A stretch of DNA of 64,000 nt, taken from Runella sp. SP2 (GTDB lineage Bacteria; Bacteroidota; Bacteroidia; Cytophagales; Spirosomataceae). The position numbers and the translations under genes were made by a program. The number at the start of each line of letters is the position of its first letter. Positions within the stretch are counted from its first letter, which is position 1. Shown one piece after another: positions 24,029 through 45,820 of the stretch. The notes beneath the pieces are model-generated. The model searched no databases and was not told where the DNA came from. It saw only the letters and a list, made by a program, of their open reading frames with translations. Location of the stretch: positions 1,302,001 to 1,366,000 of the forward strand of contig NZ_CP031030.1 in assembly GCF_003711225.1 (NCBI RefSeq), given 5' to 3'.

Positions 24029-24074
24029 AACCTTAATAGCTTTCATTTTAATTACTCTAAGATTTACAATACCA

Positions 24075-29206: not shown

Positions 29207-30481
29207 ATGGAAAACTTTCGGATTGAGAGTTTACAAATCTCACAAGTTGGCCCTTTTAATGCTCTCAATATCACTTTCCCACACAAAGAAAATTCTGAAA
29301 AAGCAGAAATTCATATTTTAACAGGCCCGAATGGAACTGGGAAAAGCACAATTTTGGAGTGTCTAATCAGTAGATTAGAAAATGCTTATTTTTTAAAAAA
29401 GCATTGGAACTCAAAGTCAGATGTTGAAATAAATTATTCGTATAAAGGTAAAAAGCATTCAGAAAATATAAATGGTTGGGTAGAAAACTCTTATCCTGAT
29501 AGTTTTTTTTCAGAATACCTTCATTTAATAAGAAGATATTTTGAAGGAGTTAAATTTGAAATGCTTTATCTCACCTATTCAGGTTACCGAAAAATAGAAA
29601 TTAACCGAGGTGTTTCTCAATCTATTGCAGAGCTTCAAGAAAATCCATTTAATAATTCTGTTGATTTCAATAATTCAATTAATACTCAGCAATTTCTTCA
29701 ATGGGTGGCAAATACTATAACTAGAGAGTTGATTGCGTCCAGTAAAAAAGACAAAAATCGGGCTGATACTTATCGAAACAGTATTTCTATCATTGAAAAT
29801 GCTATTTCAGAAATAATTGGTAGTGAAATAAGATTTATATTAGACGAGAACCCATTGAGTGTTTTTGTAGTGTTAGATAACATACAACTTAATTTCGACC
29901 AGCTTCCTGATGGGTTAAAATCAATGATGAGTTGGATGGGAGATTTGTTGATGCGGATGGATAGACTAAAATGGGTCAACGATACTCCCGTTTTGGAACG
30001 AAACTTTATCTTGCTCCTCGACGAAATTGAAGTCCACCTGCATCCTGCTTGGCAGCGCAAAATTCTACCTGTTGTCCAAAAATTGTTCAAAAATGCCCAG
30101 ATATTTATTTCTACCCATTCTCCTTTTGTAGTAGGGTCAGTGGATGGCGCTTGGGTGCATCGTTTTGAGAAAAAAGACGGTTACAGCGTCTTGGCAGGGC
30201 CACCCATTTTATCAGAAGATGCCAAAAGCTATGATTATATTTTGGAAGAAATATTTGGAGTCAAAGAGCGTTTTGGGGTGGAGATTGAACGAAAACTGCA
30301 AGATTTTCAGGCGTTAAAAGCGTCGTTTTTGGCTGAACAGCGCCAAGAAGATGCCATTCGGCTGCATCAACTAGTGAAAGAACTTTCAGGACAAAGTACT
30401 GAGTTGGACAGTATTCTAGGCATGGAACTACGACAGCTAAAACGTCTTACCAATCAAGATTTTTCTTTGACTGAAGTATGA
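29207..30481 (+). CDS. Septu PtuA-like AAA/ABC-type ATPase
   Basis: 424 aa. Walker A GPNGTGKST (40-48), Walker B LLLDEIEVHLHP (about 267-278) and H-loop ISTHSPF near 300. This is an SMC/ABC-like ATPase head with a long insert (about 90-250), then a C-terminal helical tail (EIFGVKERFGVEIERKLQDFQ). The stop codon overlaps the start of an HNH nuclease gene (ATGA). An overlapping ATPase plus TIGR02646-type HNH is the composition of Septu (PtuA/PtuB) anti-phage systems and of the Ptu module of some retrons. No reverse transcriptase is visible here. The first 800 nt are AT-rich while the rest is near genome average. Confidence 0.8.
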   Translation: MENFRIESLQISQVGPFNALNITFPHKENSEKAEIHILTGPNGTGKSTILECLISRLENAYFLKKHWNSKSDVEINYSYKGKKHSENINGWVENSYPDSFFSEYLHLIRRYFEGVKFEMLYLTYSGYRKIEINRGVSQSIAELQENPFNNSVDFNNSINTQQFLQWVANTITRELIASSKKDKNRADTYRNSISIIENAISEIIGSEIRFILDENPLSVFVVLDNIQLNFDQLPDGLKSMMSWMGDLLMRMDRLKWVNDTPVLERNFILLLDEIEVHLHPAWQRKILPVVQKLFKNAQIFISTHSPFVVGSVDGAWVHRFEKKDGYSVLAGPPILSEDAKSYDYILEEIFGVKERFGVEIERKLQDFQALKASFLAEQRQEDAIRLHQLVKELSGQSTELDSILGMELRQLKRLTNQDFSLTEV

Positions 30482-31092
30482 GAAGATTTGAACGTAAAGA
30501 AGTGCCAGAAGTATTGTCAAAAACCGTATATGGGAAACCTCGGTGGGAAGAATTCGGGGAACGATACGCTCAAAATCGGGTAAAAAATAACTCTTTTGCA
30601 TTTCAATGGCCACAAATCGAAGGTAAAAAGCTAAATCAACTTCTGTTGCCTGATTTGATGGCAATGACTGAGAAACATTGTTCTTATTGTGACGGTTTTC
30701 CGTTAAAAAGAGGGGATGATACCATTGACCATTTTCATCCCAAAACACATCCAGCGTATTATCAAGAAGTGTGCAAATGGGAAAACTTATACATTGCTTG
30801 TAAACACTGTCAAGACTCTAAAGGAAGTCAATTTGAAATGGCTCTTTTAAGACCTGATGCAATTGACTATGAATTTTATCGGTTCTTCATTTACGACTAT
30901 AACAGTCACATTCTACTACCCAATCCTCAAGCCTTAGAGGAGGAAAAAGCCAGTGCAGAAGCTACCATTCGGATATTTGATTTGAATCACATTAGTATGT
31001 GCATAAGTCGTCGTCATGCCTTCGAGCGTTTTAGAAAAGATGAAGAACCATTTTTGTCAGATTATAATTTTAGATTTATGTTTGACGATTAA
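30478..31092 (+). CDS. Septu PtuB-like HNH endonuclease (TIGR02646-like)
   Basis: 204 aa. The zinc-stabilised HNH core lies at 68-116: C68-SY-C71, Asp84-His85 with HxxPK (DHFHPK), Asn103 in WENL, then C108-KH-C111 and KG. This is the CxxC..H..N..CxxC pattern of the TIGR02646/PtuB group. The C-terminal part is helical ([20 protein letters not shown]). Start overlaps the ATPase stop by 4 nt, implying coupled synthesis. Likely the DNA-cleaving effector. Ends 11 nt before thyA. Confidence 0.82.
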
Positions 31093-31917: not shown

Positions 31918-33813
31918 GTGATGAAGAATTGGTGGTGCTGTTTGATGGGAGTACTTTTTCCTTTGTTTGCAATTGCGCAAATTAGGGTCGAGATTGTTCG
32001 TCATGCCCCTTTCAAAACGGCCAATCAACGACTTTTTTTAGCCAGCGATTTTAATAATTGGCAACCTGGGGATGCCGCATTTGAGTTTAAACGGGATAAA
32101 ACAGGCAAATTCTCTTTGGATTTGCCCGATACACTGACCAATTTTAAGTTTAAGGTAACGCAAGGAAGCTGGGGGTTAGTAGAAGGGGATAGCACAGGAA
32201 AAAGCCGTCCTGACAGGGTCTATTATCGTTTTGATGAGAAAAACCCAAAATTCCTGCAAATCAGTATTGATGGCTGGGAGGCAAGGGCAATGTATCGTTT
32301 TGTGATTAACGAAATCCCCGAAAATACGCCCAAAGATGCCACAATTTACATCACAGGTAACTTTAATAACTGGCATGCGGGAGACGAAGATTTTAGGCTA
32401 AGAAAACAAGTAGATGGCACATACCGCGTCACAGTTGCATCGGATTTACCAAGGTTGGAGTATAAGTTTACTCGTGGAGACTGGAATAGCGTTGAAGGAC
32501 AGGAAAACGGAAAAACGCGAATTAACCGAATTTTATACCGAGGTCAAATTGTTAATAATGAGAATATTGAGGTAAAGATAGAAAGTTGGGAAGACCTTTC
32601 AGGGACGTTTCGCTCCATTTCTATCTATGATTTGCTGCTGTTGTTTTCAGCCTTTCAAAGCATTTTGTTAATCATTGCCATTACGTCGATGCAAGACTAC
32701 AACCGACACGCGAATCGTTGGTTGGTGGTTTCGTTGGCATTTATGGCTATTGTGGTGGCTATCAAAGTCGTGAGCGCGTATCGTGAAGTAGCGCAGGAAT
32801 ACACGAAGATGCTACTTATCCCCGATTTTGTACTCTTTTTGTATGCCCCTCTTTTCTATTTCTATATCCAAAAACTGCTTTTCAAAATCCCCAAATTCCC
32901 GCGCCATTGGTGGGGGCACTTTTTATTGCCTGCTGTTCAATTGTTGGTGTATTTGCCTTTCTTTTTTATGGAAGATAAAAGGCTTCAAATCAAGATTGTC
33001 AATCGTGAAATCGACATTGTTGGGCTATTTTGGGGAACAGGAACTTTGGCCTTGCTAACTAATTGGTACTATTGGTTGGTATGTTATAAAGCGATTCGTT
33101 CGTATCGGGCGTTGGCTGTCAACCAGTCATCATCCGAATACAATCTTCAATACCTTTCGACGGTTTTGGGATTACAATTGGTATGTTTGGTACTTTGGCT
33201 TTTTTCGGGTATGCTGTTCGGAATCGGGTATTTTTTCAAAATTGAAACGGTTACAATTGTCCAAAAAAGCATTGACACCATTTGGTTGGCTTTTTCGACG
33301 ATTCCCTATTTCCTGGGTTATTTTGCCATTCACCAACCCGAAATTTTTAAAATTCAGGCCAAACCTCAGCCTTTCCTGAAACCTACCGAAGAGCCAACGG
33401 TCACCATTGCATTGCACGATACATTGGCTCCCGTGCTAGAAAAAGAGGTGGACACGCTCGAAAATTTAGGTGGCTACAAAAGCAAATTGGAAACCTACAT
33501 GCAGCAACATAAGCCTTATACCAACCCTGGATTGACGCTCAATGAATTGGCTCAGAAATTAAAACTTGCGCCTCATTTATTGTCAAAAATTATCAATGAA
33601 GGCTACAACAAAAATTTCTTTGACTTTATAAACGAATACCGAATCGAAGAATTTAAACAGCGTTTTGAAGACCCGCGCAACAAGCATTTTACCCTTTTGG
33701 CCATTGCCTTTGAAGTAGGGTTTAATTCAAAAACAGCTTTCAACCGCGCTTTCAAAAAAATGACGCAACAAACTCCGCGAGAATATTTTTTCGAGGCGAG
33801 GATTGAGGATTAA
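31918..33813 (+). CDS. Membrane-spanning AraC-type regulator with two starch-binding-like domains
   Basis: 631 aa. Signal sequence (cleavage before Gln21), then two tandem glycogen/starch-binding-like domains, about 22-120 and 125-230. They carry SDFNNWQPGD and GNFNNWHAGD, the same NNW signature as in the amylase at 43037. About seven hydrophobic segments follow between 236 and 480. The C-terminal AraC-type HTH (about 520-631) contains LTLNELAQKLKLAPHLLSKIINE and LLAIAFEVGFNSKTAFNRAFKKMTQQTPREYF. Inferred topology: glucan-sensing domains in the periplasm, DNA-binding domain in the cytoplasm. It lies next to the SusCDE/GH13 locus, which it probably controls. Distinct from Bacteroides SusR in its domains. 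Confidence 0.85.
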   Translation: MMKNWWCCLMGVLFPLFAIAQIRVEIVRHAPFKTANQRLFLASDFNNWQPGDAAFEFKRDKTGKFSLDLPDTLTNFKFKVTQGSWGLVEGDSTGKSRPDRVYYRFDEKNPKFLQISIDGWEARAMYRFVINEIPENTPKDATIYITGNFNNWHAGDEDFRLRKQVDGTYRVTVASDLPRLEYKFTRGDWNSVEGQENGKTRINRILYRGQIVNNENIEVKIESWEDLSGTFRSISIYDLLLLFSAFQSILLIIAITSMQDYNRHANRWLVVSLAFMAIVVAIKVVSAYREVAQEYTKMLLIPDFVLFLYAPLFYFYIQKLLFKIPKFPRHWWGHFLLPAVQLLVYLPFFFMEDKRLQIKIVNREIDIVGLFWGTGTLALLTNWYYWLVCYKAIRSYRALAVNQSSSEYNLQYLSTVLGLQLVCLVLWLFSGMLFGIGYFFKIETVTIVQKSIDTIWLAFSTIPYFLGYFAIHQPEIFKIQAKPQPFLKPTEEPTVTIALHDTLAPVLEKEVDTLENLGGYKSKLETYMQQHKPYTNPGLTLNELAQKLKLAPHLLSKIINEGYNKNFFDFINEYRIEEFKQRFEDPRNKHFTLLAIAFEVGFNSKTAFNRAFKKMTQQTPREYFFEARIED

Positions 33814-33856
33814 TAAGAAGATTTAGCTTCAAAAATGTGTGCCATTTTATTGGTTA

Positions 33857-33895
33857 GGACGTGCCACCTTCTAAAAGTGGTACGTCCTTTTTTTT
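33857..33895 (+). terminator. Intrinsic terminator after the regulator gene
   Basis: 11-bp stem GGACGTGCCAC/GTGGTACGTCC (one G-T pair), loop CTTCTAAAA, then eight T residues. Separates the regulator from the SusC operon. Confidence 0.88.
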
Positions 33896-33984
33896 GTAAT
33901 ATTCTGATAAATAGTTGTTTATAAAAAATAGTGACTCTTTTTGTCATTATTGCAAAGTGGGACGACAAGCGGGGTTAAGTATGG

Positions 33985-33992
33985 TACTTTTG
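33985..33992 (+). promoter_or_regulatory. -7 box TACTTTTG of the SusC operon
   Basis: TACTTTTG fits TAnnTTTG and lies 80 nt before the chosen SusC ATG, giving an untranslated leader of about 75 nt. No good -33 box is seen at normal spacing, which would suit an activator-dependent promoter; that is inference. Confidence 0.5.
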
Positions 33993-34072
33993 CAAGAAGA
34001 AATTGATGAAACGCCGTGTTTACTCCATTTCAATCTTTCCAATTATCCAATTTTAACTTACATCAAACCCCT

Positions 34073-37036
34073 ATGATGATTTCGATGTACCAAGTTTTTA
34101 GCCGAACAAACATTCGTCTAAATCTGATGATGTTGCTGTGGGCCTTCGTGTCCATAACAACCATGGCGCAGGACATTACTGTGTCAGGAAAAGTTCAAGA
34201 ATCCAACGGCTCGGTGCTTCCAGGCGTGAGCGTGTTGGTGAAAGGAACCACGCGTGGTACTCAAACCGACGCGGATGGTAACTTCAAAATTGCGGCGCCA
34301 AGCAGCGCAACGTTGGTGTTTAGTTTTGTTGGCATGACTTCGCAGGAGGTGGCCATCAACAACCGCACGCAGCTTTCGGTGACGTTGCAAAATGACAACA
34401 AACAACTGGCGGAAGTGGTCGTAATTGGGTACGGTACGCAACGTAAAAAAGACCTGACGGGCTCTATCGCTTCTATTACTACCGCCGACTTTAACAAAGG
34501 TAACATTGCCACGCCCGACCAACTCGTAGCGGGTAAAGTAGCGGGGGTGCAGATTACGCCCAACGGCGGAGCGCCAGGCGCAGGAAGCACGATTCGAATT
34601 CGCGGGGGGGCTTCGTTGAATGCCAGCAATGACCCACTCATCGTCATCGACGGTGTGCCTTTGGACAATACCACCATCAATGGCGCAGCAAACCCTTTGA
34701 GCTTGATTAACCCCAACGATATAGAGTCATTTAATATCCTTAAAGATGCTTCTGCAACCGCTATCTATGGTTCACGAGCCTCTAACGGGGTCATTATGAT
34801 TACGACCAAAAAAGGGAAAAAAGGCGATGTGATGCGCGTAAACTTGAGCACGCAAGCGTCTGTTGGTCTTAAAACTGGTTTGGTTGACGTTCTGTCGGGG
34901 GATGATTTCCGTGCTTTGGTCAATCAATACGGTACAGCAACGCAAAAATCGTTGTTAGGTACGGCAAATACCAATTGGCAAAATGAAATTTATCGTGCAG
35001 CGGTAAGTACGGATAATAACCTGAGTATCACAGGTGCGCTCAAAAATACGCCTTACCGTGTATCGGTAGGTTATACCAATCAAAACGGTATTTTGAAAAC
35101 CTCTAACATGGTCCGCACCTCTGCCTCGGTGGGATTGACGCCAATGTTGTTGGATAATCACCTCAAAATTGACATCAATGTCAAAGCTGCTTCGATTAAA
35201 AATAAGTTTGCCAACCAAGGTGCTATCGGGGCAGCGGCCTCATTTGATCCAACTCAACCTGTGTATTCGGGGACGGAAGCGTACGGCGGCTATTATGAGT
35301 GGGTTAATGCCGATGGCAAACCTAACACCATCGCAACGCGCAACCCACTTGGCTTGTTGAACTTGACCGATGACCGTGCAACAGTAAACCGCAGCATCGG
35401 GAATGCACAGTTTGATTATAAATTTCACTTCCTGCCTGAACTACACGCTAACCTGAACGTAGGTTATGACGTATCAAGAAGCGATGGTAAAAAGGTTATT
35501 CCTGCCTTGGCAGCGTCTAATTTTAGTAATGGAGGCGAAAAAACAGTTTATACCCAAGACCGTACTAACAAATTATTGGATTTTTACCTCAACTACGTCA
35601 AGGATTTGACAAAAGATACGCGTCTTGACTTGATGGCGGGGTATTCTTACCAAGACTTTATGAATTCGACCACGACCATCACCAAGGACGAAGCCGAAAC
35701 CAAAACCCTCAACGACAGTCCCTACAAGACTCAAAATACCTTGGTGTCGTTTTTTGGTCGGGCCAATTTGAACGTGCAAGACCGTTATTTATTGACATTT
35801 ACGCTTCGTCGTGATGGTTCATCTCGCTTTGCCAAAGAAAACCGTTGGGGAACGTTTCCGTCGGCGGCTTTTGCTTGGAAAATCAGCGAAATGGATTTCT
35901 TGAAAAGCTCTAGTGTGATTTCAGACTTGAAATTGCGCGTCGGATATGGGGTAACAGGTCAGCAAGATGTGGGACAAAACTTCGCTTATTTGGCACGTTA
36001 TACGCCAAGTACGGCTACTGCCCAGCAGCTTTTGGGAACAACCTACTACAACACTCTCCGCGCCGAAGGCTACAATGCGAACATCAAATGGGAGCAAACG
36101 ATTACGCAAAACGTTGGGTTGGACTTTGCGTTCAAAAAAGCACGTTTGTCGGGTAGCATCGACTACTACATGAAAAATACGTCGGACTTGTTGAACGTCG
36201 TTCCAGTGGCAGCAGGAACCAACCTTACCAATGAAATTCTGTCAAACGTTGGTTCTATCGAAAACAAAGGTTTGGAGTTGTTGTTGAACCACAACACCAT
36301 CAGTCGCGAAGATTTTACGCTTGATTTAGGTTTCAATGCGACTTACAATGAAAATAAAATCACCAAGTTGACATCAGCTAACGATCCCAATTATAAAGGG
36401 GTATTGGTGGGTGGAATATCAGGCGGGGTAGGAAACACCATTCAAATCCATTCGGTTGGCTATCCTGCTTCTTCGTTTTTCGTAGCTCAGCAAGTGTATG
36501 ACGCTTCGGGCAAACCCGTAGAAGGCGTATATGTGGACAAAAATGGCGATGGTAAAATCACCGTGGATGACTACAACCACTACAAATCGCCCGCTCCACG
36601 CGTATTTATTGGTTTCAATGCCCAAGCGACGTACAAAAAATTGAGTGCAGGCTTTGTCTTACGTGGCAACTTTGGCAACTACGTTTATAACAACATTCTT
36701 TCAACCAATGGCGTATTGCAAGCCTTCCAAGGTGCTAATAACTCATTGGGTAACGTTGTGCCAAACGTCCTTACTACCTTGTTTGCGACGCCTCAGTATT
36801 TCTCCGATTACTACATGCAAAATGGTTCATTTTTACGAATGGACAACGCATTTGCAGGCTATGATTTAGGAAAAATATTTGGCGGAAAATCAACCGCACG
36901 CCTTTCAGCAACGGTTCAGAATGTATTTGTAATTACAAAATACACAGGCCTCAACCCTGAAGTGAGCGGAGGAATCGATAATAACATTTATCCCATTCCA
37001 CGTACGTTTACCCTTGGCTTAAACATCGGATTCTAA
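34073..37036 (+). CDS. susC: SusC-family TonB-linked outer-membrane transporter
   Basis: 987 aa from the ATG at 34073 (MMISMYQVFSRTN); a GTG at 34016 would add residues before the signal. Signal peptide ends TTMAQ with Gln at +1. Then come a carboxypeptidase-D-like domain (ITVSGKVQESNGSVLPGVSVLVKGT), the TonB-plug region (LAEVVVIGYGTQRKKDLTGSI, IRIRGGASLNASNDPLIVIDGVPLD) and a long beta-barrel ending in PRTFTLGLNIGF. With SusD it imports glucan oligomers across the outer membrane. Start of the starch operon. Confidence 0.96.
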   Translation: MMISMYQVFSRTNIRLNLMMLLWAFVSITTMAQDITVSGKVQESNGSVLPGVSVLVKGTTRGTQTDADGNFKIAAPSSATLVFSFVGMTSQEVAINNRTQLSVTLQNDNKQLAEVVVIGYGTQRKKDLTGSIASITTADFNKGNIATPDQLVAGKVAGVQITPNGGAPGAGSTIRIRGGASLNASNDPLIVIDGVPLDNTTINGAANPLSLINPNDIESFNILKDASATAIYGSRASNGVIMITTKKGKKGDVMRVNLSTQASVGLKTGLVDVLSGDDFRALVNQYGTATQKSLLGTANTNWQNEIYRAAVSTDNNLSITGALKNTPYRVSVGYTNQNGILKTSNMVRTSASVGLTPMLLDNHLKIDINVKAASIKNKFANQGAIGAAASFDPTQPVYSGTEAYGGYYEWVNADGKPNTIATRNPLGLLNLTDDRATVNRSIGNAQFDYKFHFLPELHANLNVGYDVSRSDGKKVIPALAASNFSNGGEKTVYTQDRTNKLLDFYLNYVKDLTKDTRLDLMAGYSYQDFMNSTTTITKDEAETKTLNDSPYKTQNTLVSFFGRANLNVQDRYLLTFTLRRDGSSRFAKENRWGTFPSAAFAWKISEMDFLKSSSVISDLKLRVGYGVTGQQDVGQNFAYLARYTPSTATAQQLLGTTYYNTLRAEGYNANIKWEQTITQNVGLDFAFKKARLSGSIDYYMKNTSDLLNVVPVAAGTNLTNEILSNVGSIENKGLELLLNHNTISREDFTLDLGFNATYNENKITKLTSANDPNYKGVLVGGISGGVGNTIQIHSVGYPASSFFVAQQVYDASGKPVEGVYVDKNGDGKITVDDYNHYKSPAPRVFIGFNAQATYKKLSAGFVLRGNFGNYVYNNILSTNGVLQAFQGANNSLGNVVPNVLTTLFATPQYFSDYYMQNGSFLRMDNAFAGYDLGKIFGGKSTARLSATVQNVFVITKYTGLNPEVSGGIDNNIYPIPRTFTLGLNIGF

Positions 37037-37053: not shown

Positions 37054-38649
37054 ATGAAACATTTCATTTCTAAAAATACAATCATTGGAGGAATTGCACT
37101 CGCGTTGACAATGTCCTCTTGTATCAAAGACCTAGATCGTAAGCCGTTCAATGAAGTTACTTCAGCAACGGTCTATAACGACCCTGCGGCCTACAAACAA
37201 GTAGCCGCCAAACTGTACGCTGGTATGATGCTGACGGGGCAGCAAGGCCCTGCGGGCGACGACCGTACGAAGGACATCAAAGGAATGGACGAAGGGTTTT
37301 CGAGCTATTTGCGTAATTATTGGTATTTGCAAGTACTCCCAACCGATGAGGCCGTGATTGCGTGGAGTGACGCAGGTTTGCCCGAAATCAACTACATGAA
37401 GTGGTCGTCGAATAACGCATTCATTCGTGGTTTTTACAACCGTGTATTTTATCAAATTGCTTCTTGCAATGAATTTATTCGCGAAACCAGCGATGCTAAA
37501 CTTACCGAAAGAGGTGTTTCGGGTACTATTTTGACTGAAACAAAAGCCCTTCGTGCGGAAGCGCGTTTCTTGCGGGCTTTGAGCTACTGGCACGCGTTGG
37601 ATTTGTTCGGAGGAAATGTCCCTTTTGTAACAGAAAATGACGCTGTAGGCTCTGCTCCGCCAAAACAAACGAATGCCAAAAGCTTGTTTGAATACATTGA
37701 ATCGGAGTTGAAAGCAATTGATGGCGAGCTAGTTGACGCTCGTAAAAACGAATACGCCCGCGCCGACAAAGCAGCAGCGTGGATGTTGTTGGCAAAATTG
37801 TACCTCAACGCCGAAGCCCAAGGCCAAGGAAACCGCTACGCAGACGCGGCTACCTACGCTAAAAAAGTGATTGACGCGGGGTATTCTTTGCAAACCAAAT
37901 ACGAAGATTTGTTTAAAGCCGACAATAACACCTCAACGGAGGTGATTTGGGCACTCGCCGCCGACGGAACACGTAGCCAAACTTGGGGTGGAATGACGTT
38001 CCTATGCCATGCGCCCGTGGGTGGTTCGATGCCAGCTTCTGCCTATGGTATCGACGGCGGTTGGGGTGGTGTTCGTGTGACGCCATCGTTTGTGAGGCTT
38101 TTTGCTGACCCAACGGGAAAAACGGACAAACGCGCGATGTTTTATACAGATGGCCAAAAGTTGGAAATCAACGAATTGAGCACATTTACGGACGGGTATG
38201 CCATGCCTAAGTTCAAAAATGTAACCTCGTCGGGTAAAGTAGGAAGCAACCTAACGCACCCTGATACCGATTTTCCAATGTTCCGTTTGGCGGATGCGTA
38301 CTTGATTTATGCCGAAGCTGCTGCCCGTGGTGCTGGCGATAAAGCCTTGGCGTTGGATTATGTCAACAAAATCCGAGCGCGTGCCTATGGCAGTGCCGCT
38401 GGAAACATCACTTCTTCTGAGTTGACGCCTGATTTTGTATTGGCCGAACGTGCCCGTGAGTTATCGTGGGAAGGAAGCCGCCGTACTGACTTGATTCGCT
38501 ATGGTAAATTTACGGGTGCGTCGTATTTGTGGGCGTGGAAAGGTGGCGTAAAAGACGGGGCGGGGGTTCAAGATTACTTGAAAATTTTCCCAATTCCATC
38601 CACTGACCTAACGGCGAATCCAAACTTGGTTCAAAACACAGGGTATTAG
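37054..38649 (+). CDS. susD: SusD/RagB-family glycan-binding lipoprotein
   Basis: 531 aa. Lipoprotein signal with lipobox MSSC (Cys about 23). Typical SusD layout: N-terminal LDRKPFNEVTSATVYND, TPR-like helices with ETKALRAEARFLRALSYWHAL, and the C-terminal ARELSWEGSRRTDLIRYGKF. Surface lid and binding partner of the SusC gene 17 nt upstream. Starch specificity is inferred from the GH13 genes. Confidence 0.96.
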   Translation: MKHFISKNTIIGGIALALTMSSCIKDLDRKPFNEVTSATVYNDPAAYKQVAAKLYAGMMLTGQQGPAGDDRTKDIKGMDEGFSSYLRNYWYLQVLPTDEAVIAWSDAGLPEINYMKWSSNNAFIRGFYNRVFYQIASCNEFIRETSDAKLTERGVSGTILTETKALRAEARFLRALSYWHALDLFGGNVPFVTENDAVGSAPPKQTNAKSLFEYIESELKAIDGELVDARKNEYARADKAAAWMLLAKLYLNAEAQGQGNRYADAATYAKKVIDAGYSLQTKYEDLFKADNNTSTEVIWALAADGTRSQTWGGMTFLCHAPVGGSMPASAYGIDGGWGGVRVTPSFVRLFADPTGKTDKRAMFYTDGQKLEINELSTFTDGYAMPKFKNVTSSGKVGSNLTHPDTDFPMFRLADAYLIYAEAAARGAGDKALALDYVNKIRARAYGSAAGNITSSELTPDFVLAERARELSWEGSRRTDLIRYGKFTGASYLWAWKGGVKDGAGVQDYLKIFPIPSTDLTANPNLVQNTGY

Positions 38650-38803: not shown

Positions 38804-40114
38804 ATGAAAAAGTGGTTTCATAAATGCTTATTCGCGGTCGTTGCGACGACGATGCTGGCCTCATGCGAAAAAGACGAAATAAAGGCCGTCCTCAATTCGG
38901 GAGCAGTGCCTGTGGTGACCCTTTCGTCACAAACAGTCGTACTGACCAAAGAAAATGCGGACAAAGATGCCTTGACGGTATCGTGGGCAAAACCTGATTA
39001 TGGTTTTGAGGCACCTGCCAACTACACCGTTTTGATTGATAAAAAAGGAGGTGATTTCTCCAATGCAGCGTCGATTGTGACGGGAACGGAATTGAAAAAG
39101 ACGTTCAAAGCATCAGAGTTGAACCCGATTTTGTTGAAACTCGGCTTGAAAGCAGCTACCGCTGGCGACATCGACATCAAAGTTCAGTCGTTTTTGGGTG
39201 GAAGCACTACGTTAGCATCAACGGTGATGTCAGTAAAAGCAACGCCTTATTTGGACAAACTTGACCTTTCTACCAACTGGGGAATCGTGGGAAGTGCGAC
39301 TGTAAACGGCTGGAATGGCCCAGATATGCCGTTCTACAAATCGGATAAAGCCAATGTGTATGTAGCATACGTAGCGTTGATTGATGGTGAAATCAAATTC
39401 CGCCAAGACAACAAATGGGATGTCAATATGGGTGATAATGGTGCTGACGGTACACTAGAAGCAGGTGGTGCCAACATTGTAGTCAAACAAGGGAATTATA
39501 AGATTACGTTTGATGCAAGTGCTCTAAAATATACCATTGATAAATACGCGTGGGGGTTAGTCGGTAGTGCCACACCAAGTGGCTGGAGCGCCCCAGACGT
39601 GCCATTCTTCTACGACCCAGCCACCGATCAGTGGCGTGCGATTGCGACGTTGAAAGATGGTGAAATCAAGATTCGTCAGAATGAAGATTGGGCAGTCAAC
39701 TACGGTGACAAAGGCGCCGACGGTACGCTCGAAGCAGGTGGGGACAATATCGTGGTAAAAGCAGGTTTGTATTTGATTACCGTTGATTTTAAGTCAATGA
39801 AATACACGATTGTACCATACAAAGCATGGGGAGTGGTAGGAAGTGCCACGCCTAATGGCTGGAATGGCCCTGACGCCAAATTTACGCCTGATTTTGGTAC
39901 CGAAGGAATTTGGACATTGAGCGGAATTAAATTGGTGGACGGTGAGATGAAGTTCCGCCAAAACGATGATTGGGGAGTCAACTACGGTGATGATAAAGCC
40001 GATGGTGTGATGGAGCCTGGTGGAGCCAACATTGTCGTAAAAGCAGGAACGTACGATATCATTCTTGATTTTACTAACGCTGCCAAGCCGACGTATAAGT
40101 TGACCAAAAAATAA
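38804..40114 (+). CDS. SusE/SusF-like surface lipoprotein with three starch-binding repeats
   Basis: 436 aa. Lipoprotein signal with lipobox LASC (Cys about 21). N-terminal SusE-type Ig domain (about 35-150). Three tandem repeats follow, starting near 159, 250 and 342, each opening with WGxVGSATxxGWxxPD and containing DGEIKxRQNxxWxVNYGDxxADGxLExGG. These match the C-terminal carbohydrate-binding modules of SusE/SusF. Holds starch at the cell surface. Third structural gene of the locus. Confidence 0.92.
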   Translation: MKKWFHKCLFAVVATTMLASCEKDEIKAVLNSGAVPVVTLSSQTVVLTKENADKDALTVSWAKPDYGFEAPANYTVLIDKKGGDFSNAASIVTGTELKKTFKASELNPILLKLGLKAATAGDIDIKVQSFLGGSTTLASTVMSVKATPYLDKLDLSTNWGIVGSATVNGWNGPDMPFYKSDKANVYVAYVALIDGEIKFRQDNKWDVNMGDNGADGTLEAGGANIVVKQGNYKITFDASALKYTIDKYAWGLVGSATPSGWSAPDVPFFYDPATDQWRAIATLKDGEIKIRQNEDWAVNYGDKGADGTLEAGGDNIVVKAGLYLITVDFKSMKYTIVPYKAWGVVGSATPNGWNGPDAKFTPDFGTEGIWTLSGIKLVDGEMKFRQNDDWGVNYGDDKADGVMEPGGANIVVKAGTYDIILDFTNAAKPTYKLTKK

Positions 40115-40157
40115 CAATTGCATAAGTAACAAACTGAAAACTAATAGGTTGAAAAGT

Positions 40158-40191
40158 AAAGCACCGATGAATTTTTGTCGGTGCTTTTTTC
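40158..40191 (+). terminator. Intrinsic terminator after susE
   Basis: 10-bp perfect stem AAAGCACCGA/TCGGTGCTTT (40158-40167 with 40178-40187), 10-nt loop, T run. It overlaps the upstream extension of the next ORF and so supports the later start of that gene. Confidence 0.85.
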
Positions 40192-40205
40192 TACTACAAA
40201 TTCGT

Positions 40206-41138
40206 ATGTACAGATACTTAGCATTGCTCAGTTTGGTTGGTGCAGTCTTAATTGGGAAAGCCCAAAACCAATCTCTCCAACTTTCAGGCGGTAAAATAAC
40301 ACGCTTTGAAAACTTCCGCTCTCGTTTTGTGGCTGAGCGAACGGTTGATGTGTGGACACCCTCCGATTACACGCCTACCCAGAAATACGCTGTGTTGTAT
40401 ATGCACGACGGACAGATGTTGTTTGATTCGTTGTCAACTTGGAATCGGCAAGAGTGGGGTGTGGACGAAACCCTCGAAAAGCTTTCACAAACTCATCCTG
40501 AATTCAAAAATTGCCTTGTGGTTGGAATCTGGAACTCGGGAAAAGGCCGCCACCCCGATTATTTTCCACAACGGCCTTATGAGTTGCTTACCCATACCCA
40601 AAAGCAATTTGTGACCGAACAACTTCAAAAAATAGGCCGAACCACAGATGCGTTTGTTCCTAATTCGGATAACTACCTACGATTTATTGTCGAAGAACTT
40701 AAACCCTTCATTGATAGTACGTTTTCGACCTTCCCAAATCCTGAAAATACCCTGATTGCGGGTTCGAGCATGGGAGGATTGATTTCGATGTATGCCTTTT
40801 GCGAATATCCTGACGTTTTTGGGCGTGTGGCTTGCTTATCTACGCATTGGCCTGGAATTTTTTCGCTAGAAAATAACCCTATTCCTGATGCCTTTGTAAA
40901 GTATTTGGAAACTAATCTCCCGCCTCCTCAAAAAGGCCGTAAAATCTATTTTGACTTTGGTACGGCTACGTTGGACGCACTCTATGAACCTACGCAGCGG
41001 CGAGTGGATGCTTTATTAAAAGCAAAAAAATACAAAGCAGAGCATTGGAAAACGCTAAAATTTGAAGGAGCAGACCACTCCGAAAAAGCTTGGAAAGAGC
41101 GATTAGCCGTTCCATTTACATTTTTACTTCAAAAGTGA
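40206..41138 (+). CDS. Exported esterase (PF00756/enterochelin-esterase-like)
   Basis: 310 aa from the ATG at 40206 (MYRYLALLSL); earlier ATGs lie inside the terminator hairpin. Signal peptide ends GKAQ with Gln at +1. Alpha/beta fold of the putative-esterase family: YAVLYMHDGQMLF, nucleophile elbow GSSMGG, and a late His in GADHSEKAW. Proteins of this family often accompany Sus-type loci. Substrate unknown; deacylation of modified glucans is a guess. First gene after the terminator, followed by susA-like. Confidence 0.85.
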   Translation: MYRYLALLSLVGAVLIGKAQNQSLQLSGGKITRFENFRSRFVAERTVDVWTPSDYTPTQKYAVLYMHDGQMLFDSLSTWNRQEWGVDETLEKLSQTHPEFKNCLVVGIWNSGKGRHPDYFPQRPYELLTHTQKQFVTEQLQKIGRTTDAFVPNSDNYLRFIVEELKPFIDSTFSTFPNPENTLIAGSSMGGLISMYAFCEYPDVFGRVACLSTHWPGIFSLENNPIPDAFVKYLETNLPPPQKGRKIYFDFGTATLDALYEPTQRRVDALLKAKKYKAEHWKTLKFEGADHSEKAWKERLAVPFTFLLQK

Positions 41139-41188: not shown

Positions 41189-43027
41189 ATGAAAAAACTT
41201 CCTTTTTTAGTCTTCATCTTGCTAACCTTTGCCTTTAGGGTTCAGGCCCAGCGCATCGAACCTGCCTTTTGGTGGGTAGGTATGAAAGAGCCTCGTTTAC
41301 AGTTGCTTGTACACCATAACGGCATCGGTGCCACTGAGCCTCAAGTGACTTACGCAGGGGTAAAACTGACGAAAGTAACGCGTGTAAAAAGCCCCAATTA
41401 CCTTTTTTTAGATTTGACTATTGCTGCCACTACCAAAACAGGAAGCTTTCCAATTACCTTTAAAAAGGATGGGAAAACGGTGGCGACTTATTCGTATGAA
41501 TTAAAGAATCGAGAACCTAATTCGGCTAATCGCCAAGGGTTTACCTCAGCCGACGCCATGTATTTGGTAACTCCAGACCGTTTTGTGAATGCGAATCCCG
41601 CTAATGACAACGTGGAAGGGATGACCGATAAAGTTGACAGAACTGGAAAAGATAAACGGCATGGAGGTGATATTCAGGGGATTATCGAGCATTTGGATTA
41701 CATTCAAAAGCTGGGTTTTTCGGCACTTTGGATTTGTCCATTGCAAGAAAATAACCAAAATATGGGTTCGTACCACGGCTATGCCATGACCGATTTGTAC
41801 AAAATAGATGCACGTTTTGGGAGCAATGAAGAGTACCGAAAGTTGTCGAAAGAAGCCCAAAAAAGGGGTATAAAATTAGTGATTGATTTGGTGCCTAATC
41901 ACTGTGGTTCAGAGCATTGGTGGATGAAGGATTTACCCACCGACGACTGGGTGAATTTTCAAGGAAACCCTAAAATAACCCACCACGCCCGCGAGAGTAT
42001 TCAAGACCCCCACGCGAGCGAGTACGACAAAGAACTACACGCCAGCGGTTGGTTTGTGTCAAGTATGCCCGATTTGAATCAGCGTAATCCGTTGATGGCC
42101 AATTATTTGATTCAAAATACAGTCTGGTGGATTGAGTACGCTGATTTGCACGGAATTCGGGTTGATACGTATCCTTATTCTGATAAAGACTTTATGAGTC
42201 GCTGGTCGCAACGCATCATGAGCGAGTATCCCCGTTTTAGCATGGTCGGGGAAGAGTGGTCGGTTAATCCTTCGATTGTAGCATTTTGGCAAAAAGGGAA
42301 TAAAAATGCCAATGGATACGTGTCGGAAATGTCAAGTATGTTTGATTTCCCGCTGCAAAATGCCTTGACTGAAGCCTTGAATGAAGATGACCGAATTTAC
42401 AACCGTGGTTTGGTGAAAATATACCAAACGCTGTCGCAGGACTTTTTATACGCAGCGCCCAATAATTTGGTTATTATGCCAGATAACCACGACATGAGCC
42501 GTTTTTACACCCAAATCCACGAAAATTTCGACCTGTGGAAAATGGGAATTGCATTTTTGCTGACGACGAGGGGTACACCACAAATTTATTACGGAACAGA
42601 AGTACTGATGACCAATCCGAAAAGTGATTCGCACGACGAGATTCGGGGCGAAATGCCAGGGGGATGGGCTGACCATACTGTAAGTGCCTTCACCGAAAAA
42701 GGGTTAACACCCCAACAGTTGGAAGCAAAACAATTTATAACCAAATTGCTTCAATGGCGTAAAACCAATGCGGCCGTTCAAACGGGCAAATTGAAACACT
42801 TTACCGCCCGCGATGGCCTGTATGTGTATTTTAGGTACAACGATGCCCAAAAAGTAATGGTGGTGATGAACAAAAATAAAGAACCGTTGAAACTAGATTT
42901 GAGCAAATACTCGGAAATTTTGAAGGGAGCATCGTCGGTAAAAAATGTAGTGACGGGAGAAATGAATTCGTTAGCCAATGGCTTGACTATCAATGCTTCG
43001 TCGGCACTTGTTTTGGAGGTAAAATAA
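41189..43027 (+). CDS. susA: SusA-like GH13 neopullulanase/cyclomaltodextrinase
   Basis: 612 aa. Signal peptide with Gln at +1 (VQAQ). N-terminal beta domain (about 22-110) as in cyclomaltodextrinases, then the GH13 barrel. Catalytic nucleophile Asp326 (GIRVDTYPY), acid/base Glu355 (MVGEEWS), third acid Asp435 (MPDNHDMSR). DLVPNH is conserved region I. C-terminal beta domain from about 530. Should split imported maltooligosaccharides, pullulan or cyclodextrins in the periplasm. No T9SS tail, in contrast to the next gene. Confidence 0.93.
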   Translation: MKKLPFLVFILLTFAFRVQAQRIEPAFWWVGMKEPRLQLLVHHNGIGATEPQVTYAGVKLTKVTRVKSPNYLFLDLTIAATTKTGSFPITFKKDGKTVATYSYELKNREPNSANRQGFTSADAMYLVTPDRFVNANPANDNVEGMTDKVDRTGKDKRHGGDIQGIIEHLDYIQKLGFSALWICPLQENNQNMGSYHGYAMTDLYKIDARFGSNEEYRKLSKEAQKRGIKLVIDLVPNHCGSEHWWMKDLPTDDWVNFQGNPKITHHARESIQDPHASEYDKELHASGWFVSSMPDLNQRNPLMANYLIQNTVWWIEYADLHGIRVDTYPYSDKDFMSRWSQRIMSEYPRFSMVGEEWSVNPSIVAFWQKGNKNANGYVSEMSSMFDFPLQNALTEALNEDDRIYNRGLVKIYQTLSQDFLYAAPNNLVIMPDNHDMSRFYTQIHENFDLWKMGIAFLLTTRGTPQIYYGTEVLMTNPKSDSHDEIRGEMPGGWADHTVSAFTEKGLTPQQLEAKQFITKLLQWRKTNAAVQTGKLKHFTARDGLYVYFRYNDAQKVMVVMNKNKEPLKLDLSKYSEILKGASSVKNVVTGEMNSLANGLTINASSALVLEVK

Positions 43028-43036
43028 ACCATTTGT

Positions 43037-45820
43037 ATGAAAAAACTCATTTCTATTTTCCTGGGGCTATTGGTGAGTCAATGGAGTTGGGGACAGGCAT
43101 TGGCGGTCAAACCAGAATTCCCTACCGCTGATGGTGAAGTAACCTTGACGTTTGATTTAACGCAAGCGAAAGACACCCGCAAAGCCGCCTTGATGAATCA
43201 AGCCTCGGGCTTGTATATTTGGGCCTGGGGTGGCTCGGATGTATCGAACCGCACGTCCGAATTTGGCCCCGCAGGCCAATCCAGTTTTTCACAACCTTAC
43301 GCGCCTGGATTGTTGACGCGGGTAAGTGATAACGTTTGGACGATTAAAATTACGCCTTCAAAATACCTGAGCGTGCCTGCGGGAAAAACGCTTCGGTGGA
43401 TGGGCGTATTGGTAAAAAACGCCAACGGCTCAGGCCAAACCGAAGACTTTTTGTTCAACTTTTATACTTCAAATCAGTTGTTTGTACGTTTCACTACCCC
43501 TACTGAAAAAACGCTCTTTGTCGATGCTAATTCTTCGCTACGGGTGAGGGCAAGTGCTTCTACTTCGTCTCAATTGACGCTTACGCTCGACGGAACAACA
43601 GTAGCTTCCGCCAAAGACACGGCTATTTCGACCACGATTGCCGTTGGAAATACACCAAATCAGCGGCGAACGGTAAAAATTGTAGCAAGTGCCAACAACC
43701 AAGAAGTTACTGATGAATTTTCGTTTACTGTTAGCCCTACGCCTGCGGTAGCGGCTCTTCCTGCTGGACTGAAAAATGGCATTAATTATACTTCGGCTAC
43801 GTCGGCAACATTGGTGCTATTTGCTCCCAACAAGAAGTTTATTTACGTTACGGGTGATTTTAATAATTGGGAAACGCGTACTGACTATTTGATGAATCGA
43901 ACCCCTGATGGGCAGACGTATTGGTTAGAAATCAGAAATTTAACTCCCCAAAAAGAATACGCGTTTCAATACTTGGTCGATGGCGTAATGCCGATTAGTG
44001 ACCCGTACAGCGAGAAGATTTTGGATGCCTTTAACGATAAATTTATTCCAGCCACGAACTATCCTAATTTGATGGCTTTCCCCGCGAAAGCCTTGGGAAA
44101 TAGCGCGTCGGTACTCCAAACGGCCCAAGTTCCTTACGTTTGGAAAACTACTAATTTCAAACGCCCCGCCAACGAAGATTTGGTGATTTATGAGCTACTC
44201 GTGCGGGATTTTGTGGATAGTCGCTGGTACAAAACGGTGGGAGACTCGCTCAATTACCTCAAGAAACTCGGGGTTAATGCCATTGAGTTAATGCCTGTTA
44301 TGGAGTTTGCGGGCAATGATTCTTGGGGGTACAATCCCATCTTTCACGCAGCCCCTGACAAGGCATACGGCACGCCTGATGATTTGAAGGCATTCATTGA
44401 CAAATGCCACGCCAACGGGATTGCGGTGATTTTGGACATGGTACTCAACCAAGCCGATTATGAGTTTCCGTACGTAAAAATGTACTGGGATGGCAATCGT
44501 CCGTCGGCCGATAATCCCATGTTTAATCTCCAAGCAACGCACCCGTTTAGCGTGTTTTTTGATTTTAACCACGAATCCGCTGCGACCAAATCATACGTGG
44601 AGCGAGTCAATGAATTTTGGTTGAAGGAATACCGTTTTGATGGCTATCGCTTTGACTTATCCAAAGGATTTACGCAGGTGAATTCGGGAAATGACGTGGC
44701 TTTTTGGGGACGTTACGATGCCAGCCGAATCGCCATTTGGAAGCGAATTTATGACCAAATTCGTAAAACCGACCCGACGGCCTACGTCATTTTAGAGCAT
44801 TTCGCCGACGACAACGAAGAAGCTGAGTTGACCAATTATGGCATGATGGTGTGGGATAACCAAAACGGTGCGGTACGCGAAGCCGTCAAAACTGGAAAAG
44901 GGAATTTTAACCGATTATCGTGGAAAAACCACGCAGGTTTTCAAAAACCAGCGGCCATTGGTTACATGGAAAGCCACGACGAAGAGCGAATTGTGTACGA
45001 CGCCATCACCAACGGCAGTGCTGAGGTGAAAAGCGTAGCCACGGCCATTGAACGTGTAAAGGCCGCCGCCGCGTTGTTTTTCTTAACGCCAGGGCCAAAA
45101 TTACTATGGCAATTTGGGGAATTGGGCTACGACGTGTCAATTGACCAAAACGGTCGGACGGGGGCTAAACCCATTCGGTGGGAGTATTTGCGGGATAATA
45201 AACGCCTTCAACTCTATAATGTTTTTTCGGAACTGATTCGCTTCAAAACGACGCAGGCCGTGACCAAAACGACAGATTTTAGCCTACAAACGACCGAAAC
45301 GATTAAACAGTTGATTCTGAATTCGCCAACGATGAAAGTACAGGTCATTGCCAACTTTGGACTTACCGACCAAGTCGTTGCGCTGCCCGTAGGTCGCTGG
45401 TTTGACTTTTTCTCAGGCGATGAAATTACGGTGACTTCTTCCTTGCCGCAATACGCGTTTCGGGCGGGGCAGTTTCATGTACTGACCTCCGAAAAAGTGG
45501 CCGTTACTTCACAAAATACCGTTTCGTGGAAAATACAAACGATTACCTCGGCAGAACCTTCGCCAAAAGAGACAACCCTGCAATTGTCGCCTAATCCTAC
45601 CCAAGATTGGCTAAACGTGGCGTGGGAGAGTGCCTACCGCGGGGAGGTAAGAATAGAAATTATGGATATGACAGGACGGGCAATTCGCCATTTTTTACCC
45701 CAGAAATTGACCAACCAAATGCAGCAGCGCATTTCGGTGAAAGAAGTGCCAGCGGGTACTTATTTCTTGAAAATAGCGGAAGGAACAGCTTCCCAAACCC
45801 AACGCTGGATAAAACAATAA
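43037..45820 (+). CDS. T9SS-exported GH13 alpha-amylase-family enzyme
   Basis: 927 aa. Signal peptide with Gln at +1 (WGQ). N-terminal beta domains (about 21-250), a CBM48-like domain with VTGDFNNWE near 271-279, then the GH13 barrel with DMVLNQ. Nucleophile Asp540 (YRFDLSKGF), acid/base Glu587 (ILEHFADD), third acid Asp648 (ESHDEER). Region I has DMVLNQ where His of the usual NH is replaced. A T9SS sorting domain starts near 848 (LSPNPTQDW, GTYFLKIAEG). Surface starch breakdown for SusCD. Last gene of the locus, 9 nt after susA; its stop nearly abuts the convergent neighbour. Confidence 0.92.
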   Translation: MKKLISIFLGLLVSQWSWGQALAVKPEFPTADGEVTLTFDLTQAKDTRKAALMNQASGLYIWAWGGSDVSNRTSEFGPAGQSSFSQPYAPGLLTRVSDNVWTIKITPSKYLSVPAGKTLRWMGVLVKNANGSGQTEDFLFNFYTSNQLFVRFTTPTEKTLFVDANSSLRVRASASTSSQLTLTLDGTTVASAKDTAISTTIAVGNTPNQRRTVKIVASANNQEVTDEFSFTVSPTPAVAALPAGLKNGINYTSATSATLVLFAPNKKFIYVTGDFNNWETRTDYLMNRTPDGQTYWLEIRNLTPQKEYAFQYLVDGVMPISDPYSEKILDAFNDKFIPATNYPNLMAFPAKALGNSASVLQTAQVPYVWKTTNFKRPANEDLVIYELLVRDFVDSRWYKTVGDSLNYLKKLGVNAIELMPVMEFAGNDSWGYNPIFHAAPDKAYGTPDDLKAFIDKCHANGIAVILDMVLNQADYEFPYVKMYWDGNRPSADNPMFNLQATHPFSVFFDFNHESAATKSYVERVNEFWLKEYRFDGYRFDLSKGFTQVNSGNDVAFWGRYDASRIAIWKRIYDQIRKTDPTAYVILEHFADDNEEAELTNYGMMVWDNQNGAVREAVKTGKGNFNRLSWKNHAGFQKPAAIGYMESHDEERIVYDAITNGSAEVKSVATAIERVKAAAALFFLTPGPKLLWQFGELGYDVSIDQNGRTGAKPIRWEYLRDNKRLQLYNVFSELIRFKTTQAVTKTTDFSLQTTETIKQLILNSPTMKVQVIANFGLTDQVVALPVGRWFDFFSGDEITVTSSLPQYAFRAGQFHVLTSEKVAVTSQNTVSWKIQTITSAEPSPKETTLQLSPNPTQDWLNVAWESAYRGEVRIEIMDMTGRAIRHFLPQKLTNQMQQRISVKEVPAGTYFLKIAEGTASQTQRWIKQ

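Follow-up and report, generated by a model that had tools for sequence, protein, structure and literature searches.

The window analysed here is a stretch of 64,000 nucleotides from Runella sp. SP2 (contig NZ_CP031030.1, positions 1,302,001 to 1,366,000). Directly before a starch operon, it encodes a membrane regulator in which two tandem domains resembling starch-binding modules are joined to seven predicted transmembrane helices and an AraC-type helix-turn-helix (HTH) domain. This protein is probably a one-component inner-membrane receptor of alpha-glucans regulating the starch operon through a bipartite DNA element, with starch-derived sugars as its putative ligand and DNA binding as its predicted output. 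The strongest evidence for a regulatory role is an operator-like element (33861-33992) composed of a distal palindrome and of a proximal half-site that precedes the promoter of susC. It is this bipartite element before the susC operon that is new here; the open literature, searched with most subscription papers and bioRxiv preprints outside its scope, returned no description of such a protein type or operator.

Of the 150 genomes examined in its taxonomic family, 61 encode a homologue of the regulator (E<=1e-40). The family search scored at most eight first-look candidates per genome and the class search three, absence meaning no match among those. Since nearly all family matches are full-length or lack domain 1 only, the gene is not a chance open reading frame (ORF). 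A class-wide sample gave matches in 20 of 345 genomes: five (G000, G208, G235, G308, G357) have the full architecture by residues covered, thirteen match the membrane or HTH part only, and two the sensor only. At least 30 named loci (L097-L126, from the best 80 named loci listed) encode a protein with at least one sensor domain. Sensor-bearing homologues occur, among the matches listed, in Runella, Flectobacillus, Rudanella, Fibrisoma, Dyadobacter, Spirosoma, Emticicia, Daejeonella, Arcicella, Lacihabitans, Fibrella, Fibrivirga, Hymenobacter, Flammeovirga, Cellulophaga, Maribacter, Saprospiraceae, and others, the best named relative being that of Runella defluvii (97% identity). The remaining named loci listed encode mainly sensor-less proteins of ~380 residues with seven transmembrane helices (7TM) and an AraC domain, referred to below as 7TM-AraC proteins.

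The proximal part of the element is the box AAAGTGGnRCGAC; 18 or 19 nt downstream of it stands TAnnTTTG, the usual Bacteroidota -7 element. This arrangement is present in most susC upstream regions of the window and 22 relatives, the box lying further upstream where a gene or a long gap intervenes before susC. Among 54 non-identical promoters (of 57 rows, that from L120 and two with no susC close by were dropped), the free columns of the box display A at positions 1, 2, and 3 in 51, 53, and 52 promoters, G at position 4 in 42, and C at position 13 in 39; positions 5-7 (TGG) and 10-12 (CGA) were set by the filter, so their identity is no evidence. The spacing between box and -7 element is 18 nt in 40 and 19 nt in 11 of the 51 parsable promoters. 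Upstream of the box lies a palindrome of 22-23 bp with the consensus GTnCCAyTTTATAAArTGGnAC, half of which resembles the box. In the 49 palindromes scoring at least 10/12, the centre is located 69-105.5 bp upstream of the box, with distances to the half-site grouped at 69, 77-85.5, 91-95.5, and 105.5 bp. Helical phasing is not claimed, because successive groups are spaced by closer to 12 bp than to 10.5 bp and the genomes compared are relatives. Reading the inverted repeat (33861-33883) as a transcription terminator is less favoured, and a terminator scan of 33780-34080 finds no such site. Thirteen of the 49 scored palindromes are followed by at least five T within 14 nt; the window's own is among them, and because eight T follow it, it could serve both as operator and as terminator. 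The box is found before susC even at 7.5-8.5 kb from the regulator (L072, L077), and on the divergent strand where susC is divergent (L088-L090). The box therefore follows the operon, not the regulator gene.

The strict box pattern, AAARTGGNRCGA-N19,20-TANNTTTG, matches 43 of the 150 family genomes, against three for the reversed control pattern, and its single match in the Runella sp. SP2 genome is the window site, which predicts a regulon of one operon. The pattern occurs in 41 of the 61 regulator genomes versus 2 of the 89 others (p=3e-19, a value inflated by relatedness), and, with one genome per genus, in 11 of 18 versus 0 of 18 (p=1e-4). The two regulator-less exceptions are a match inside an ORF in G063 and one before susC in G124. 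The latter genome harbors a 39-residue match (62%) to the regulator C-terminus, within a 47-residue open frame, that is possibly a cut copy of the regulator. In regulator genomes, matches away from susC lie before a GH13 (glycoside hydrolase family 13) gene in G080, inside an ORF in G134, at a gene for an esterase in G066, and, in G141, upstream of an ORF with no assigned identity. Twelve genomes have no susC near the regulator, and eleven of these have no box there either; the twelfth, G016, possesses a box and an amylase gene beside the regulator.

In six of the eight genomes whose assembly separates regulator and operon, the element is present before the operon: G029 (twice, before susC and before a homologue of the second GH13 gene, GH13B), G025, G010, G019, G101, and G073. 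G025 and G010 are fragmented drafts, so the real distance between regulator and operon is open to doubt there; G101 and G073 carry the same T-to-C change in both palindrome and box. Among 17 regulator-less genomes searched, two (G005, G036) possess an orthologous SusD, at three loci, none of which has the element. The full bipartite pattern gives 39 matches in L031-L090, one in one mononucleotide shuffle, and none in 50 control loci (L127-L176); the figure of 39 is partly circular because the pattern was learnt from L031-L090, and the controls are from more distant organisms. Outside the family, the pattern is found in both Hymenobacter loci (L112, L114), where GH13 rather than susC follows, and in L179, a short locus from another family of the same taxonomic order. 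A GH13-type gene comes after the operator in three loci with no susC in reach (L046, L112, L114). The bipartite scan gave no match in L106, L113, L115, L117, L118, L120, L121, L123, L125, L126, L178, L180, L181 (the last three short loci), L289, L291, L292, L295, L296, and L297. The Flavobacteriaceae loci (L120, L121, L123) show no convincing operator, with one half-site-like match in L120.

The gene neighbourhood points the same way as the earlier note, which had placed the regulator directly before a SusCDE/GH13 locus: genes for SusC, SusD, SusE, a PF00756 esterase, and two GH13 enzymes do follow it. Across 61 loci (60 stretches of relatives plus the window), susC lies within 10 kb of the regulator in 48, downstream on the same strand in 45 and divergent in three; one of these 48 genes is only 35% identical, and the 13 remaining loci lack susC in the stretch examined, some stretches being short. 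In the window, the regulator has a thymidylate synthase gene as its 5' neighbour, a pairing seen in Runella only. GH13 or SusE is encoded nearby in 21 of 30 named homologue loci, and GH13 in 18. In the 49 loci of sensor-less 7TM-AraC proteins (L127-L176 minus L162), GH13, SusD, and SusE are found in none and SusC in one. Loci of at least 15 kb make up 34 of these 49 controls versus 24 of the 30 homologues, and the controls come from organisms at a greater distance from the query proteins. The alpha-glucan neighbourhood goes with the sensor-bearing form, not with the sensor-less one.

The protein itself has the composition that had been proposed, a single chain with a signal sequence, two domains carrying an NNW motif, about seven transmembrane segments, and an AraC domain, all recovered by Pfam, hydropathy, and structure model (Table 1). 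The frame given earlier, 31918..33813, is present, whereas its GTG at 31918 is not the likely start, which is an ATG one codon later, at 31921. Pfam scanning of the full-length protein detects HTH_18 at residues 543-622 (E=7.5e-14) and HTH_AraC (E=6.8e-7), and the nearest solved structures to the C-terminal part are AraC-type; this C-terminal AraC-type HTH places the regulator in the AraC/XylS family. No histidine kinase or receiver domain and, for the membrane helices (residues 235-471), no family at all is matched in Pfam at E<=1. The signal peptide and the hydrophobic stretches are visible in hydropathy averaged across 31 homologues, and Q20, just after the predicted signal peptide, is kept in 59 of 60 (this 60-row alignment leaves out L059, which is N-terminally cut; alignments A3 and A5 leave out five single-domain homologues). 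The model displays seven long helices, at about 235-257, 262-286, 295-321, 330-348, 364-398, 403-439, and 444-471. Their weak fold matches to G-protein-coupled receptors and rhodopsins were taken as generic seven-helix similarity. Loops expected inside are more positive (+1.2, +2.9, +1.1) than those outside (+0.5, -0.5, -0.8); unlike these six agreeing loops, the segment that follows the seventh helix is neutral (-0.1). A signal peptide followed by seven helices predicts periplasmic sensor domains and a cytoplasmic HTH, that is, sensors and HTH on opposite sides of the membrane, as the earlier note required of its model. By prediction, the protein is thus a membrane-bound one-component regulator with a periplasmic sensor, a membrane part, a cytoplasmic AraC HTH, and no phosphotransfer domains.

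The two sensor domains (~105 residues each) are clearly a duplicated pair (profile-profile probability 100, E=4e-44). Their assignment to the CBM20/CBM48 group of carbohydrate-binding modules (CBMs) rests on two-domain scans, nearest solved sequences, fold, and aligned residues, because single-domain Pfam scans gave few matches (the best family matched 3 of 26 members for domain 1 and 3 of 31 for domain 2). In the full-length Pfam scan, they stay below the cut-offs (AMPK1_CBM E=0.06, CBM53 E=0.17); the isolated two-domain region of the window protein passes that of CBM_48 (E=8.7e-5, 23.2 bits versus a cut-off of 22.4). Two-domain scans of 26 homologous sensors (E<=0.1) match AMPK1_CBM in 23, pullulanase X25 in 17, CBM53 in 13, and CBM_48 in 10. 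The best sequence match among all solved chains is BoGH13ASus (E ~3e-4); next come AMPK beta subunits, enzymes of glycogen branching, and one pullulanase (E 0.066-1), plus a few unrelated rows. The sensor structure model (predicted local distance difference test, pLDDT, 89.5) superimposes one whole domain on the CBM20 of STBD1 (TM-score 0.68 by target length, root-mean-square deviation 4.0) and reaches a TM-score of 0.60, by target length, with the starch-binding domain of B. cereus beta-amylase. Ranked by E-value, the fold search gives the pilin 3phs first, with a low TM-score, and BoGH13ASus second; the CBM20 matches rank lower, yet they span the whole domain. In the AMPK beta alignment, three residues of the sensor, namely the tryptophan of FNNW, the lysine, and the tryptophan of GxW (GQW), line up with residues which presumably contact the sugar in AMPK. 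All 60 family homologues share W151, K182, W188, and N202 in domain 2; among the 55 that have domain 1, W47 and K78 never vary and W84 is kept in 54. The wider set (n=31) retains W151, K182, and W188 in 31 and N202 in 30, as well as W47 in 26 of the 26 with domain 1 and K78 in 24 of them. Domain 1 of the window protein has D98 at the position of N202, where 48 of 55 homologues have N. A weak profile match, the fold, and aromatic and lysine residues as putative sugar contacts thus agree on the CBM20/CBM48 group, and the NNW domains are, as had been supposed, starch-binding-like rather than of a non-carbohydrate family.

The same domain type has other uses. It is fused N-terminally to PF00756 esterases, including one of the Runella sp. 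SP2 genome itself (G000:C1:6625542-6625781, L204), the others being among L209-L234. Two secreted or lipoprotein-like ORFs, L188 433-2211 (-) and L194 541-2217 (-), harbor about five tandem copies of the domain, with AMPK1_CBM above the Pfam cut-off in both. They directly follow genes for a LytTR response regulator and a LytS-type histidine kinase (assigned by Pfam in L188 only), an arrangement that, judged from gene order, is a possible second use of this CBM-like domain in sensing.

Taken together, sequence and model support the earlier note's simplest reading, that of a periplasmic glucan sensor which would bind DNA while anchored in the inner membrane. Maltooligosaccharides imported by SusC into the periplasm would bind the two tandem CBM20/48-like domains, and the seven-helix bundle would pass the change to the cytoplasmic AraC domain of a protein that is probably dimeric. 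Still anchored, the AraC domain would directly contact the palindrome (centre ~70-105 bp upstream) and the half-site, which replaces the -33 element, possibly with dimerisation or looping. The bound domain would then help RNA polymerase and activate transcription of the susC operon. Because the half-site directly precedes the -7 element, its position suggests activation rather than repression, by analogy with known AraC-type activators.

The points that weigh against this reading concern the sensors, the operon content, and the occurrence of the element alike. The unrelated Chibby family is also matched by 6 of the 26 sensors in the two-domain scan, the window domains scanned one at a time have no Pfam match at E<=0.01, and the solved-sequence matches beyond BoGH13ASus are mostly non-significant singly. 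One sensor domain only is present in 5 of 60 family homologues, which lack domain 1, and in both Hymenobacter homologues. All ten esterase fusions tested carry the same domain type on a PF00756 esterase; the domain alone therefore does not prove starch. A GH53 gene lies between operator and susC in two genera (L062 7713-8846 (-), L068 10979-12109 (+), L267 958-2133 (+)), confirmed in 3 of 3 proteins tested and with look-alike ORFs at the same place in L049, L074, and L080. GH53 is classically a galactanase and is odd in a starch operon. The esterases and the GH53 genes are what would favour a regulator of the susC operon whose ligand is another glycan or an esterified sugar, the link to starch being one of operon content only. 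Such a ligand is unlikely: profile, fold, and contact residues all speak for membership of the alpha-glucan-binding group, GH13 adjoins the majority of the named homologues, and a GH13-type gene takes the place of susC after the operator in the three loci mentioned above. The esterase fusions themselves lean the same way, since one carries CBM_20 above the Pfam cut-off and another just below it, and a branching-enzyme-like gene (read from the sequence, no profile) adjoins the fusion in L212 and L218.

Other difficulties bear on the element and the membrane part. The strict box pattern is absent in 20 of the 61 regulator genomes, several of which have variants and others none found. G065 and G077, the two genomes with regulator and operon apart that lack the element, have their orthologous susC behind two short sigma-factor/FecR-like genes (names read from the sequence), and three more regulator genomes (G014, G028, G045) have no SusD orthologue at E<=1e-80. 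The element might instead serve a different regulator or some special sigma factor, co-inherited with the gene, the membrane protein acting elsewhere; several genera have the regulator but not the element, shared ancestry inflates the association, and binding of the membrane protein to the element is predicted only. This is rather improbable, as the element co-occurs with the gene even when the two are apart in the assembly, follows operon rearrangements (L072, L077, L088-L090), is missing from the three orthologous loci of the two regulator-less genomes with the operon, and precedes a -7 element of the normal Bacteroidota type. Also quite improbable is that the DNA-binding domain is freed by proteolysis, in the manner of RsgI-type anti-sigma factors, instead of acting anchored: a linker modelled mostly at low confidence (residues 472-513) does separate the last helix from the HTH, yet it differs in length and sequence among homologues. 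The full-length structure model has a predicted TM-score (pTM) of 0.54. The wide occurrence of sensor-less 7TM-AraC proteins (most of L127-L176) would fit a core that senses something in the membrane and is decorated by coincidentally fused modules, an explanation that is very improbable given that the contact residues are near-invariant and that only the sensor-bearing form associates with alpha-glucan genes.

Among known systems, the alpha-glucan receptor proposed here is closest in function to SusR of Bacteroides thetaiotaomicron (BT3705). According to the accessible parts of the papers cited in this paragraph and the next, SusR is a membrane regulator with a periplasmic sensor and a cytoplasmic DNA-binding end, which activates starch genes on maltose (PMC3878776); periplasmic sensing of starch sugars and DNA binding from the membrane are thus shared features (PMC3878776, PMC11633381). 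The arrangement is a different one, as the earlier note had remarked. The comparison was made with a stand-in for BT3705, the protein of L277, called SusR-like from its position in a Bacteroidales-type sus locus and from the published description (PMC3878776). This protein has DUF6377 (E=2e-88) and no AraC HTH, and its BLASTP match to the window regulator has E=0.2; the latter has no Pfam match to DUF6377 at E<=1. Membership in the SusR type was rejected on this domain content. The predicted operators differ too: those of SusR are a pair of sites whose centres lie 67 or 77 bp apart across a long spacer (PMC3878776), whereas the window element, not a plain direct repeat, associates a palindrome with a half-site. 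A paper on Pontibacter names, from a PULDB prediction, a SusR in the alpha-glucan locus of that organism; it may be of the present type or of another.

TfoS of Vibrio and 16 proteins of Saccharophagus degradans are likewise membrane-bound AraC-type proteins and proposed detectors of polysaccharides or oligosaccharides (PMC7564644, PMC2386152). TfoS has a periplasmic domain resembling that of hybrid two-component systems (HTCS), and neither a CBM-type sensor nor a seven-helix core is described in the accessible part of that account (PMC7564644). The HTCS of Bacteroidota also combine a membrane-anchored sensor and an AraC-type HTH in one chain (PMC3878776); an HTCS identity was rejected for the window protein, given the absence of kinase and receiver domains reported above. 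Sensor-less 7TM-AraC proteins (~380 residues) possess the same seven-helix core and AraC domain, and three paralogues in the Runella sp. SP2 genome match the regulator core and HTH; the sensor-less proteins differ by having neither CBM-like domains nor an alpha-glucan neighbourhood (0 of 49 loci for the control set). A further likeness is that to the RsgI anti-sigma factors of Clostridium thermocellum, described in partial accounts as membrane signalling proteins sensing polysaccharide substrates. Some RsgI proteins use CBMs as sensors. They differ in acting via a sigma factor and proteolysis, in being Gram-positive, and in having no DNA-binding domain of their own.

Table 1. Coordinates in the window of the regulator, the predicted operator, and the starch operon.
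Feature	Position	Strand	Remarks
Regulator gene	31921..33813	+	630 residues, ATG start
Predicted signal peptide	31921..31977	+	residues 1-19
Sensor domain 1, CBM20/48-like	31978..32286	+	residues 20-122; W47, K78, W84
Sensor domain 2, CBM20/48-like	32281..32607	+	residues 121-229; W151, K182, W188, N202 in 60/60
Seven predicted transmembrane helices	32623..33333	+	residues 235-471; hydropathy and structure model
Cytoplasmic linker	33334..33459	+	residues 472-513; model confidence mostly low
AraC-type DNA-binding domain	33547..33786	+	residues 543-622; Pfam
Distal palindrome of predicted operator	33861..33883	+	GTGCCACCTTCTAAAAGTGGTAC; eight T follow in the window
Proximal half-site of predicted operator	33954..33966	+	AAAGTGGGACGAC
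Bacteroidota-type -7 element, predicted susC promoter	33985..33992	+	TACTTTTG; 18 nt after the half-site
susC, TonB-dependent transporter, predicted first target	34076..37036	+	start 34073 or 34076; profile
susD	37054..38649	+	profile
susE-type lipoprotein	38804..40114	+	SusE and SusF_SusE domains
PF00756 esterase of the operon	40149..41138	+	profile
GH13, cyclomaltodextrinase/neopullulanase type	41189..43027	+	profile
GH13 with CBM48-like region and type IX secretion system (T9SS) sorting tail	43037..45820	+	profile

Elsewhere, orthologous susCDE operons devoid of the operator (L291, L292, L295, L296) are preceded by a sigma/FecR-like pair or by a long HTCS-like ORF (identities read from the sequence), an apparent case of regulator swapping between genera. 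In the window, just before the thymidylate synthase and regulator genes, two adjacent genes (29207-31092) encode an AAA-ATPase and an HNH-like protein matching PtuA (E=1.4e-148) and PtuB (E=9.5e-74), and are predicted to form a Septu-type anti-phage system. A protein with repeated WG-type (KWGFID-like) motifs, encoded at 24012-25682, has no relation to the regulator.

What is understood of starch gene switching in Bacteroidota comes mainly from SusR of Bacteroides; a different candidate, widely conserved in Cytophagales and their relatives, is present here, its sensor being recognisable, its topology predicted, and its predicted operator exactly placed. The step from an outside glycan to a promoter becomes testable with one protein and one 130-bp DNA. 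Tentatively, and as a possibility rather than a probability, the regulator may stand for a class of seven-helix one-component receptors of Bacteroidota with interchangeable periplasmic modules that a shared membrane core links to an AraC domain. The starch form would bridge a palindrome and a half-site 70-105 bp apart and hold the promoter at the inner membrane, a single polypeptide relaying outside glycan binding to RNA polymerase with no phosphotransfer or proteolysis. If the proposed function is true, the system would provide a glucan-inducible promoter and receptor pair, as well as an example of an orthologous susCDE operon placed under different regulators in different genera.

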